A stretch of DNA of 64,000 bases from Streptomyces sp. NBC_01717. Lineage in GTDB: Bacteria > Actinomycetota > Actinomycetes > Streptomycetales > Streptomycetaceae. Shown piece after piece: positions 11,362 to 32,394 of this stretch; position 1 is the stretch's first letter, and every line of letters begins with the position of its first letter. The position numbers were made by a program, and so were the translations under genes. The notes under the pieces are model-generated. The model saw nothing but the letters and a program-made list of their open reading frames with translations. It searched no databases and was not told where the DNA came from. The stretch is taken from the NCBI RefSeq assembly GCF_036248255.1, contig NZ_CP109178.1, positions 1,116,001 through 1,180,000 of the forward strand, written 5' to 3'.

Positions 11362-11439
11362 ATGTCGAAGCGCGCACGTAAGAAGAAGGCCCGCCGCAAG
11401 AGGAAGGCGAACCACGGCCGCAAGGCCAACGGGAGCTGA
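11362..11439 (+). CDS. bL37-like small ribosomal protein (25 residues)
   Basis: The frame encodes MSKRARKKKARRKRKANHGR followed by KANGS, extremely basic. The M-(S/A)KR-x-RKK pattern and the KANHG-(K/R) segment match the small actinobacterial large-subunit protein bL37 as I know it from mycobacterial ribosomes. The ATG follows GAAGGGA by about 12 nt. It starts 17 bp after the SDR stop and could be co-transcribed with it. Assignment rests on pattern recognition of a very short sequence. Confidence 0.65.
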   Translation: MSKRARKKKARRKRKANHGRKANGS

Positions 11440-11650
11440 ACCCGACCGGGGGCGGCCTGCCGACAGGGCGGGCCGCCCCGCGTCGAACTCGGCGGAATAT
11501 CCCGTGCTCCGGTGTGTATCGCACCGACTCCCCGGGGATACGGCCCGCCCCGAGACGCTCGCCGACCTTGCCGTAGGCCCGGTGCACCAGCTCGTATGCG
11601 GCGACCAGCACTGCCGCGGCGGATCGACGGCGAGACCGTGTGCTCAGTCC

Positions 11651-11936
11651 TCAAGGCCTCCGGCCTGAACCGGCGTCTTCGGGTCGTCGGCGCATACCCG
11701 CCCGGGTCGAAGTCGAACGCGAATGCGCCGTCTCCCGGTCGATCCGTTCGGACAACTGGCGGAGCGCGGTCGCCCCGCACAGCAGCGTTCCTCGCCCCAG
11801 GGACGAGCGGGCGCCCGCGTCCAGCAGCTGCCACAGGTGGGGATTGGCGATCAGCACCCGCGGGTCCACTTCGACACGTGCGCCATCCAGGTCGCGCAGT
11901 ACCAGGCGCAGCGAGACCCCGTCGGACCAGCGCACC
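11651..11936 (-). pseudogene. C-terminal part of a membrane protein gene interrupted by IS607-type element
   Basis: The frame reads RWSDGVSLRLVLRDLDGARV onward to ATALRQLSERIDRE. I recognise it as the C-terminal half of a common small Streptomyces membrane protein with a PH-like domain. The N-terminal half is at 14232-14576 on the same strand. The two halves join if the IS607-type element (11937-14231) is removed: the shared bases CGCACC occur at both junctions. The tail after RIDRE looks degenerate. No separate promoter or ribosome binding site is seen for this half. Confidence 0.75.
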
Positions 11937-12100
11937 GTTCCTAAAAACTGAGCGGGAGTGAGTCCTGTTGCCAGGACTCGTGCTCAGTCGCGTGTCCCGA
12001 ACGGTCTTGGGCACGCTGGTTCTCCGCTGTGACCGCACAGCCGGTCGCCGCCCTCTGGGGGCTGGTTCCGTTTCGTGTCCGGCGGAGTCCCTCACGCCCC
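11937..12100 (-). ncRNA. Putative TnpB-associated guide (omega/reRNA) scaffold at the right end
   Basis: TnpB elements make a guide RNA from the 3' end of tnpB and the element end. Here a nested hairpin ends the element: inner stem GAGTCCTG/CAGGACTC (11960-11967 with 11972-11979, GCAA loop in the RNA sense) and outer stem CTGAGC/GCTCAG (11948-11953 with 11982-11987), followed by a run of five U. The flanking host sequence from 11936 downward would then be the guide. The structure is seen; the RNA and its 5' limit are inferred. Confidence 0.4.
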
Positions 12101-13584
12101 CGGGTCCCTGGCTCGGCCTGGACGGTCCGATGCCCGCCACCATCGCTCTGGTGGTGGCGGGGCGGTTTCGTCCGTCGCCGGATCGGGTGCCCCAGGGCGC
12201 GCCTTCCGATCGCGATGCCCGCCGCGTCATGGCGGGTCATCGCACGTCGGCTGTTGGTCAGAGGCGTCTTCCAGTGCTCGGCGCCCCATTTCGTGGTGTA
12301 CGCGGCATCGACGGCGATCAGGGTGAGGCCGTGCTCGGCGGCCATGTTCACCAGCCGGGCCTTCACCTTGGCGGTGGGGATGCCGTGGATGAGATGACGG
12401 AACCGCTTCTTGCGGCCGAATTTCTCGCGTGTCTTCCCGTCGGAGAAGTCCAGGTCCTCGACCGCGATCGCGGTCACGCCGGCCCGGGTGGCCCAGCGCA
12501 GCAACTGGCTGAGCGCGTGGCGCAGCTGCGCGTCGCGATGGTCTGCCGAGCCGGTGAGGTTGTACGTGAACTGGTGAGGATTGCCGACCGGGTTGCCGTG
12601 CGTATCGAGTCGGTACGCGGCGAAGTGGTCGGCGTTCGTGTCCACGCCGACCAGCCCACCGGCGCGCGCGGCCTCCAGGGGGATTGCCTGGATGGCAGAC
12701 CGCTTCCAGGATGCCGTCAGGTACCAGCGGCCCCTGAGCACGTCGAGGTGGATCTCGTACGCGACGGCCCGGTTCGCGGTGATCCGGTCGGCCCATTCGG
12801 CGCCCCGGTACGGGAACGTGACGCGGGCAGACACGACGTAACGGCCATGCGGCGCGTTGGCCAGACACTCCAGCGGCTTCGGCAGCTTGATCGAGACTTC
12901 GCCGTCGGGGGTGACGCGGATCGTCTCGTTCCCGAACCGCTTCCCGGACTCACCGTCCGCGCTGAGGAACCAGCGGGCGGCTTCCCATCGCTCCCGCCAT
13001 CCGGTCTCGGTGAGCTGGGCGGCGGCCAGGTGATGACGGTTCCTGGCGAGCTTCTTCCCGCCGCGCACGACGTGCACCCGCCCGGTCGCAATGTCGTCCT
13101 CGACGGCCGCGAGGCGGGCCTTCAGGATGTGGAGGCGGCGGGACTTGTTAAACCACTCCGTCTGCGACCGGTACCCGCCGGGCTTCCCCTTCGTGCCCTT
13201 CTCCCCGACAGGGAGGGACAGGCGGTGCATGAGCATTCGCACGCCGTCGGCGAGCTTGTCGCGGTACGCGAACTGGCCGCGCCGGGCGAGCGCGTACTGT
13301 TCGTGGGTGCCCTTGGTGAGCGCACCGGCCCACCGCGACGACGACTGACGTGTCAGGTCCTGCTTGCGGGCTGCCCAGGTGTCGTTGGTGCGCTCGAAGC
13401 CGGCCTGCGAGTACCTGCCGAGGTCAGTGGCAGCAAGAGAGCCGAGGTGGCCACCGACCAGACGCAGGACTTCGTCGTCCTGGAGTGTGAGGCCTGCCAG
13501 CCGGTCACGGATCGCGACACCGGACGCCTCCTGGACCACGAACGGCTCCCGGACCGGACGCAACGGCGTCTTGTGCTCGTTCAC
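11941..13584 (-). CDS. tnpB: TnpB-family RNA-guided nuclease of IS607-type element
   Basis: This 547-residue protein is the accessory TnpB of the insertion element, a family whose members cut DNA guided by an RNA made from the element's end. The split RuvC catalytic residues are visible: D315 in VGVDTNAD, E376 in AVEDLDFS, and D453 in TRHDAAGIAIG. Between the second and third sites, where TnpB normally has a CxxC...CxxC zinc ribbon, the sequence reads VDAAYTTKWGAEHWKTPL and has no cysteines. The N-terminal half carries the variable helical domains. The C-terminal 80 residues are rich in Arg, Gly and Gln and overlap the presumed guide-RNA scaffold. Its ATG overlaps the recombinase stop (ATGA). 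Confidence 0.9.
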   Translation of the reverse strand: MNEHKTPLRPVREPFVVQEASGVAIRDRLAGLTLQDDEVLRLVGGHLGSLAATDLGRYSQAGFERTNDTWAARKQDLTRQSSSRWAGALTKGTHEQYALARRGQFAYRDKLADGVRMLMHRLSLPVGEKGTKGKPGGYRSQTEWFNKSRRLHILKARLAAVEDDIATGRVHVVRGGKKLARNRHHLAAAQLTETGWRERWEAARWFLSADGESGKRFGNETIRVTPDGEVSIKLPKPLECLANAPHGRYVVSARVTFPYRGAEWADRITANRAVAYEIHLDVLRGRWYLTASWKRSAIQAIPLEAARAGGLVGVDTNADHFAAYRLDTHGNPVGNPHQFTYNLTGSADHRDAQLRHALSQLLRWATRAGVTAIAVEDLDFSDGKTREKFGRKKRFRHLIHGIPTAKVKARLVNMAAEHGLTLIAVDAAYTTKWGAEHWKTPLTNSRRAMTRHDAAGIAIGRRALGHPIRRRTKPPRHHQSDGGGHRTVQAEPGTRGREGLRRTRNGTSPQRAATGCAVTAENQRAQDRSGHATEHESWQQDSLPLSF

Positions 13585-14174
13585 TGCGCGGCCGCCTCCA
13601 GCGCCTTCTGCGCGCGGTTCCTAGCGGATCGGCGCCCGTACAGGCGGGCACAGAACGAGGTCGGCACCTCGGTCATGTCGCGGACCAGGTCGTCCTCGAC
13701 CTCGCCGTCATCCAAGATGACCAGGCGGCGGCCGTGGGCGGCCAGGGCGGCCTCGACAAGTTCGACGTTCATCCGCCCGAAGCGGTCCTTGTGCTCGACG
13801 ACCACGGTCGTCACATCCGGGTCGGCCAGCAGGCGACGGACCTTCACCCGCCCGCCGTTCATGCCCGAGGCGATCTCCGACTCCACACGCACCACACGGT
13901 GCCCGGCCTTGGCCGCCCACTCCATGATCCGGGCCCTCTGCCGCTCCAGATCGGCCTTCTGGTCGTGAGACGAGACCCGGGCGTACAGGCCCACACCACC
14001 GACGACATCAACGGCCTGGTTGGCCTCGATGTTCACCAGGATCGTGCGCGGACCCACCCGCATCGCAGGCACTGGCAGCGTTCCCTCACGAAACCAGCGG
14101 CGCGCGGTCTGCGGATGGACGCCCTGCGCCTTCGCCCACTCGGTCAGATTCACATTCTCGACGGTAGAGAGCAC
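13581..14174 (-). CDS. tnpA: IS607-type serine recombinase (transposase)
   Basis: This 197-residue recombinase should cut and rejoin element ends through a 5' phosphoserine link. An N-terminal MerR-like helix-turn-helix (residues 8-50, VHPQTARRWFREG) precedes the small resolvase catalytic domain, the domain order that defines IS607 enzymes. The active-site motif YARVSSHDQ places the nucleophile at S68 with R66. A second motif is VVVEHKDRFGR, with the conserved D-R-x-x-R. The start is GTG at 14174 preceded by GGGTGA. The length is typical. Confidence 0.93.
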   Translation of the reverse strand: MLSTVENVNLTEWAKAQGVHPQTARRWFREGTLPVPAMRVGPRTILVNIEANQAVDVVGGVGLYARVSSHDQKADLERQRARIMEWAAKAGHRVVRVESEIASGMNGGRVKVRRLLADPDVTTVVVEHKDRFGRMNVELVEAALAAHGRRLVILDDGEVEDDLVRDMTEVPTSFCARLYGRRSARNRAQKALEAAAQ

Positions 14175-14231
14175 TCACCCATGAACGCTAATAATCACTC
14201 ACGCTTCACTAAAACGAGTGCAGTTCGCACC

Positions 14232-14576
14232 CCCACCAGGCTGTCCGTTCGCACCCGACGCCTGCGCAGCAGACTGCGGGAAGCCAGCCAGCCCTCCCCC
14301 GCGGTCACCCGCGGCGGCCGCGGTCACCCGCGGCGGCACCAGCACCACGAGCAGCAGGACAGCGAGCGCAACCCACATGAGGGCGCGCAACCCAGTAAGT
14401 CGGCCGGATCCCACGTCGATCAGTAGCAGCAGTCCCAGAAGCAACGCGGAGCAGCCGCAGGCGGCCCGTAGCTCAGCGGTCCAGCCGTCATCCGACGCGG
14501 ACGTTCCTGGGGGCTCACCGCGGTCGGCATCGCGTTCGGGCGCACATTGAGTGACATATCGTCCGATAAGGCCCAC
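14232..14576 (-). pseudogene. N-terminal part of the interrupted membrane protein gene, with frameshift
   Basis: In one frame the sequence gives two membrane helices (SALLLGLLLLIDV and ALMWVALAVLLLVVLVP) ending in PPRVTA. It then shifts by +1, and the new frame reads GEGWLASRSLLRRRRVRTDS then LVGVR before the insertion element. The shift is explained by a 19-bp tandem duplication at 14300-14337; removing one copy restores a single frame. The C-terminal half is at 11651-11936. GTG at 14576 is a possible start, without a good ribosome binding site. The gene is broken twice. Confidence 0.75.
14300..14337. repeat. 19-bp perfect tandem duplication causing a frameshift
   Basis: CGCGGTCACCCGCGGCGGC occurs at 14300-14318 and again at 14319-14337 without a spacer or mismatch. 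Nineteen bases shift the frame by one, which inactivates the host membrane-protein gene independently of the insertion element. Confidence 0.95.
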
Positions 14577-15036
14577 GCTAGACAGGTTCGCGGACCCCGG
14601 CAGGCCATTGATGCACCGCTGACGCGGCACACGGCAGCTTTGACGCCGCCCTGACCGTCTCCGTCGGAGAACGCGTGAAGAGATCGCCACCTCGGCCGGG
14701 AACACGCCGTCCCCTGACAGGACCCGCCGAACACGGACAGGCCCGAGCAGCGAGGAGAGGTGGGCCAGGCGCCGAGATGCCGAATCTCCGACGAGGGCAT
14801 ACCGTCCATTTGGCTCGTAGTGCGCCATGGGAGGTGCTGATGTCTGCTCTCACCGTGATCGGTTACGACGGCGCCAGAGGTGACGACCGGCCTCACGCGC
14901 CCGTCAACCGCGTGAGCCTTGTCCCGATCGCGCTCCGTCCCTTCTGATGCCTGTGCCGTCCCACTGGCGGAAGCCGGGTCGCACTCAGCACCACACGCCC
15001 GCCGCGTCCGCCCCACGGGCCGGCGGAGTCGACAGG
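14577..15036. other. Gene-poor stretch upstream of a secreted-protein gene
   Basis: Besides the 35-codon frame at 14840-14947 there is no convincing gene. The promoter of the secreted protein at 15037 should lie in the last 100 bp. Bases 14549-14571, just left of this stretch, carry a motif (ACATATCGTCCGAT) seen again upstream of the nitrile hydratase genes. Confidence 0.4.
14840..14947 (+). pseudogene. Possible remnant of a universal stress protein N-terminus
   Basis: An ATG preceded by GGAGGTGCTG opens a 35-codon frame beginning MSALTVIGYDGARGDDRPHA. The first strand and the GYDG turn resemble the start of UspA proteins (xxVVGYDGS), but the homology stops after about 15 residues. Either a decayed gene or coincidence; the good ribosome binding site favours a real start. 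Confidence 0.3.
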
Positions 15037-32324: not shown

Positions 32325-32394
32325 ACGTGGGTGGGTCGGGGAGGCGGTTCGGGAACGAAACGATCCGGGTCGTCCCGGACGGCGAGGAGTGATC
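32325..32394 (+). pseudogene. Vestigial fragment of a second TnpB gene
   Basis: The plus strand here reads GGSGRRFGNETIRVVPDGEE then stop, nearly the same as GESGKRFGNETIRVTPDGEV in the intact TnpB at 11941-13584. About 44 bp (32344-32387) match at the DNA level with a few differences. The rest of that gene is absent. It is a footprint of an older TnpB-type element between the sigma-factor and desulfhydrase genes. Confidence 0.7.

Follow-up and report, generated by a model that had tools for sequence, protein, structure and literature searches.

An IS607-type insertion and a 19-nt tandem duplication within a single membrane-protein gene of Streptomyces

In the 64-kb stretch of Streptomyces sp. 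NBC_01717 DNA analysed here (64,000 nt, hereafter the window), one membrane-protein gene has received an insertion of the IS607 type and has also gained 19 nt, a reading to which we give a probability of about 0.93. The two flanks of the element belong to one gene, the ends of the element can be placed to within the triplet GGT, no target sequence is duplicated, the host gene is 19 nt longer than its homologs and the right end of the element displays RNA covariation. On the minus strand, the 5′ part of the host gene is followed by the left end, tnpA, tnpB, the right end and finally the host 3′ part. The insertion would have proceeded by serine-recombinase exchange, carried out by TnpA at a GG followed by T, with no host sequence being duplicated. 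The analysis places the ends of an actinobacterial IS607 element to within three bases, proves the insertion by empty sites and yields a probable sequence in which the damage arose. It further indicates a group of TnpB proteins lacking a zinc finger which are scored weakly by curated models, and for which an RNA scaffold and a recognition motif are predicted.

The interrupted host gene

The 5′ (N-terminal) part of the host gene lies at 14226..14576 (minus strand) and is recognised by homology to 20 loci and to the proteins P0001-P0009 and P0017; the 3′ (C-terminal) part, which includes a clade-specific C-terminal tail, lies at 11651..11936 on the same strand and was likewise identified by homology. 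The original prediction took these to be halves of one gene which yield a continuous protein once restored, and both points are borne out, as the joined flanks align without gaps over 41 positions round the junction with 20/20 homologous loci and a single open frame crosses both the junction and the repeat point in every one of them. These loci comprise the paralog of the same genome (L021) and 19 others chosen among the better 5′-flank matches in 295 genomes of the genus Streptomyces, 161 of which gave a match, many of them short; the 20 were thus selected from far more. With one repeat copy and the element removed, the reconstructed protein aligns with 95% identity over 98% of its length to P0001, an undamaged 200-aa protein of Streptomyces sp. 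NPDC058545 with a C-terminal tail of the window's kind. The read-through protein as query matched 379 proteins at E ≤ 0.001, and among the 120 listed P0001-P0003 (198-200 aa) align at 89-95% identity across 98% of the read-through sequence. No Pfam family was found for the host protein. The disrupted gene encodes a conserved, uncharacterised membrane protein of Streptomyces and is now an ordinary pseudogene. An empty site of the same species was sought in sets of 295, 150, and 392 genomes, which partly overlap, and no close match was found outside the own genome; the nearest DNA homolog of the host gene has 75% identity over 432 nt.

The frame of the 5′ part is shifted, as had been proposed, by a perfect 19-nt tandem duplication (14299..14337, minus strand; repeat family D8), with exactly 19 nt missing at this repeat in 20/20 homologs. 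Among perfect tandem repeats with a unit length of 15-40 nt it is the only one of the 64-kb window, against none in each of five Markov-simulated windows, and would probably have been gained by replication slippage. The gene was described as broken twice, which falls short of what is seen, since at least three changes are present: the start codon, overlooked at the time, has also gone, with ATC (Ile) at 14565..14567 (minus strand) standing in the place of the Met with which the shorter relatives begin and which is present in P0001-P0006 and P0017. Tandem repeats in GC-rich DNA are prone to error, and P0017 is unlike the window both at the repeat and at the ATC codon, so either could be a fault of the window's assembly; however, this assembly is rated 100% complete in three contigs, and such an error is considered unlikely.

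The order in which the damage arose is indicated by P0017, a 204-aa protein encoded on a 13,295-nt contig and matching 62% of the query at 98% identity. At its start it has the upstream reading frame seen in the window, and its frame is intact up to the insertion, where it ends in a host-element fusion (...LVGVR-TALVLVKRE). The window DNA encodes the matching LVGVR-TALVLVKR fusion, shifted to another frame, and P0017 therefore preserves this very insertion, at the identical base. As P0017 has the insertion and an intact ATG and is without the 19-nt duplication, it is probable that the element inserted first and that the duplication and the loss of the start codon followed in the lineage of the window, with the caveat that P0017 may stem from a second, error-containing assembly of a nearly identical strain. 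The window by itself fits either order, and the duplication might have come earlier with the element entering a gene that was already dead, but the features of P0017 just listed, its Met included, make this improbable.

It was also considered whether the 3′ end of the host gene had been lost at a rearrangement, as the C-terminus differs in the 20 DNA homologs, which are without the tail, and a 79-nt relic of a neighboring gene adjoins. The tail is nevertheless common to P0001-P0004 and is thus native to the clade, so that the host gene was complete before the damage; a lesion of this kind is very improbable and was rejected. That the host fragments, which are in different frames today, are two separate genes flanking the element by chance can be dismissed, as all of the 20 chosen loci, the same-genome paralog among them, and the intact sister proteins have a single gene.

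The adjoining 79-nt stretch (11533-11611, minus strand) shows 74-82% identity to a portion of a large multi-spanning gene, which by eye resembles a permease gene, and is the relic of a lost or moved neighbor; in L137, L138, and L139 this multi-spanning gene sits on the opposite side of the host gene. A small and very basic ORF (MSKRARKKKARRKRKANHGRKANGS) is present at 11363-11440 on the plus strand, downstream of a short-chain dehydrogenase gene.

Ends of the element

The element is 2,295 bp in length (11937..14231, minus strand, with one copy of the core counted), its ends having been placed by comparison with relatives. The exchange site at the left end is GGT (14229..14231, minus strand), made up of the GG core and T and preceded by further host G, while that at the right end is the GGT at 11934..11936 on the same strand. 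The common CGCACC from which the insertion point had been placed within 6 bp is indeed found at 11931-11936 and 14226-14231 (GGTGCG on the strand of the gene). The six shared bases thus stand, but they do not set the limit, as the right ends of the relatives have only GGT in common.

For this comparison 80 relatives of TnpA, the best of 282, were used, giving 81 loci with the window included. All 69 readable right ends, that of the window among them, have AGGAAC or a close variant followed by GGT, beyond which the bases vary. Right ends were located by ...GAAC or a variant of it, with the downstream GGT left out of the pattern (L086 reads TAGAAAC). A first pass gave 67 candidates, 65 of them with GGT next, the other two being wrong picks (L078, which was corrected, and L043, which was removed); a TAGGAAC search supplied three more right ends, those of L074, L085, and L098. 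Right ends were unread in 12 of the 81 loci, these being 11 unreadable cases and L043.

Recognised left ends consist of a run of G, a T, three to four variable bases and AACTG. With no condition placed on G, GGG[TC] occurs at most 14 nt upstream of the AACTG anchor in 37/38 cases, L043 being the exception, and GGGG[TC] in 34/38 anchors against a background of 3.7%; no anchor was recognised in 43 of the 81 loci. Earlier counts of left ends imposed a G-run condition, with L043, L085, L102, and L108 set aside. The T after the G-run is replaced by C in two of 47 left ends (L068 and L074); in both loci the left end has GGGGC and the right end GGT.

Within 11400-14900 no inverted pair of at least 14 nt links the two ends. 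The 6-bp identity of the junctions as a real exchange tract was tried and rejected, as the left/right identities in the window, L041, and L082 were not clearly above those of shuffled pairs: three of 38 element pairs match at three or more further bases against a shuffled mean of 1.1 (P 0.094; P 0.057 for the mean). The extra GCG shared at the two junctions of the window is accordingly compatible with chance, although borderline.

Empty sites and the exchanged dinucleotide

No target-site duplication is present at three empty sites, namely those of the window, L089, and L062. Homologs spanning the joined flanks number 20 for the L089 insertion and 19 for that of L062, one of these homologs (L156) having a small indel next to the site. 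All were drawn from the 20 top-ranking loci of each search, in which 88/121 and 53/121 genomes, respectively, gave some match; L179 in the L062 set does not span the site and is seemingly the occupied genome itself. The empty sites hold a single copy of the target, mostly GGGT, with the T kept in 16/20 (L089) and 19/19 (L062) homologs and the last G of the core in 17/20 and 18/19. With one copy of the target in the empty sites, no host duplication was added and the T after GG already existed in the target.

Because both ends carry GGT, exchange over GG and over GT is indistinguishable at most sites. The loci L068 and L074, with GGGGC at the left and GGT at the right, speak for GG, for which reason GT is not favored and we infer that the pair exchanged was most likely GG. 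The ends suggest that in this actinobacterial branch the target is further constrained by the T, the published (G)GG being extended to (G)GGGT.

TnpA and TnpB

The assignment to the IS607 type is upheld by the product of tnpA (13581..14174, minus strand), an open frame for a serine recombinase of 197 aa which scores 182.6 bits against NF033518 (cut-off 110). Its domain order is inverted, with the resolvase domain (PF00239) at residues 63-193 of 197, following the DNA-binding part; this N-terminal part is implied by the full-length match to NF033518. The element, a new IS607-family member, looks intact and is apparently autonomous. In Streptomyces sp. NPDC014870 a protein of 653 aa (P0240) possesses a resolvase domain and covers 92% of TnpB, and is apparently a tnpA-tnpB fusion.

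The tnpB-like gene (11941..13584, minus strand) overlaps tnpA by 4 nt and codes for 547 aa with the RuvC acids D315, E376, and D453. The D-E-D triad is present in the window and in 57/60 of the TnpB proteins judged, from 66 of the 81 loci which have a long frame (six of these were not judged, and 15/81 are without such a frame). No CxxC of a zinc finger was found between RuvC-II and RuvC-III in any of the 60, that of the window likewise having no zinc finger. TnpB falls below the curated model for guided TnpB (NF040570, 36.1 bits against a cut-off of 100) and below TIGR01766 (26.6, cut-off 32), with no Pfam family at cut-off. The TnpB alignment was made from 39 of the 66 proteins. The TnpB relatives L043, L086, and L087 have HQAA or HHAA in place of HDAA at the third RuvC acid, and judging by these residues they are possible nuclease-dead copies.

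A predicted guide RNA at the right end

The last 160 nt of the element form a region (11934..12093, minus strand) which, from its covariation and fold, is predicted to be the scaffold of a guide RNA (reRNA) and which overlaps the 3′ end of tnpB. In an alignment of 44 sequences, drawn from the 69 right ends after removal of near-identical ones, 15 of 20 pairs have changes on both sides; the scaffold is paired in 94.5% of cells against 24-52% in slid controls, the structure having been derived from the same alignment. The fold of the right end has a z of -3.9. Rfam gave no family at gathering score over 11600-14700 and a single sub-threshold match.

By its position and the rule given in PMC10711439, the host sequence of about 20 nt next to the right end (11914..11933, minus strand) is a putative guide. 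This adjoining sequence would serve as the guide of the structured RNA, and TnpB would cut copies of the empty site carrying the G-rich motif. RNA-guided retention of the element is somewhat more probable than its absence.

Taken together, these features allow a tentative proposal, which we hold at rather less than even odds, that this element belongs to a branch of guided IS607 elements in actinobacteria. The target of TnpA and the motif of TnpB may have converged on (G)GGG with an obligatory T, the latter being read by the recombinase and serving also as the final base of the guide-RNA scaffold, and TnpB may work without a zinc finger and with the RNA scaffold lying within its own C-terminal frame. 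If true, the TnpB protein and the RNA scaffold constrain the same bases. The less usual points are the constant T, the TnpB without zinc finger and the scaffold within the tnpB frame; their newness is not firmly claimed, and among the open-licence papers found, no title or beginning of an abstract reports them in actinobacteria.

Comparison with known systems

Exchange over GG without target duplication has already been published for the IS607 family (PMC6188088, PMC4058570), and the GG exchange proposed here fits the published IS607 reaction as given in PMC6188088. The remark that the ends of IS607 relatives are rarely known was overstated, as those of IS607, ISC1904, and others are contained in the same two papers. 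Like IS607 of Helicobacter pylori, as described in PMC6188088, the present element has tnpA and tnpB, a catalytic domain that follows the DNA-binding part, a G-rich target and no duplication of it. For IS607, (G)GG is reported as the sole target preference, whereas here T follows GG in 69/69 right ends read and, unlike IS607, three or four G (core included) precede the T at most left ends read. A likeness to IS1535 of Mycobacterium tuberculosis is drawn from names, the TnpA relatives P0255 and P0257 being publicly named IS607-like element IS1535 family transposase.

With the IS607 TnpB of ISXfa1 (as outlined in PMC10711439) there is in common the GG crossover, most likely used here too, and a GGG motif beside the target, as well as an RNA scaffold that extends over the right boundary. 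Unlike ISXfa1 TnpB, the present protein is without a zinc finger, and in 47/63 loci the tnpB frame continues to a stop within the 7 nt that precede GGT. According to PMC11061315, the IS607 TnpB of ISFba1 has 387 aa and a RAGATH-18 reRNA, compared with 547 aa and no Rfam family at gathering score here.

Related sequences in the same genome

Six TnpB relatives (L002-L007) with 58-66% amino acid identity are present in the own genome and all retain AGGAACGGT. No TnpA match was found in the stretches examined around them and L005 is broken; they may either be moved in trans or not move at all. The window itself holds, at 32330-32385, a 56-nt relic of the same TnpB family, in which 19 residues are 84% identical.
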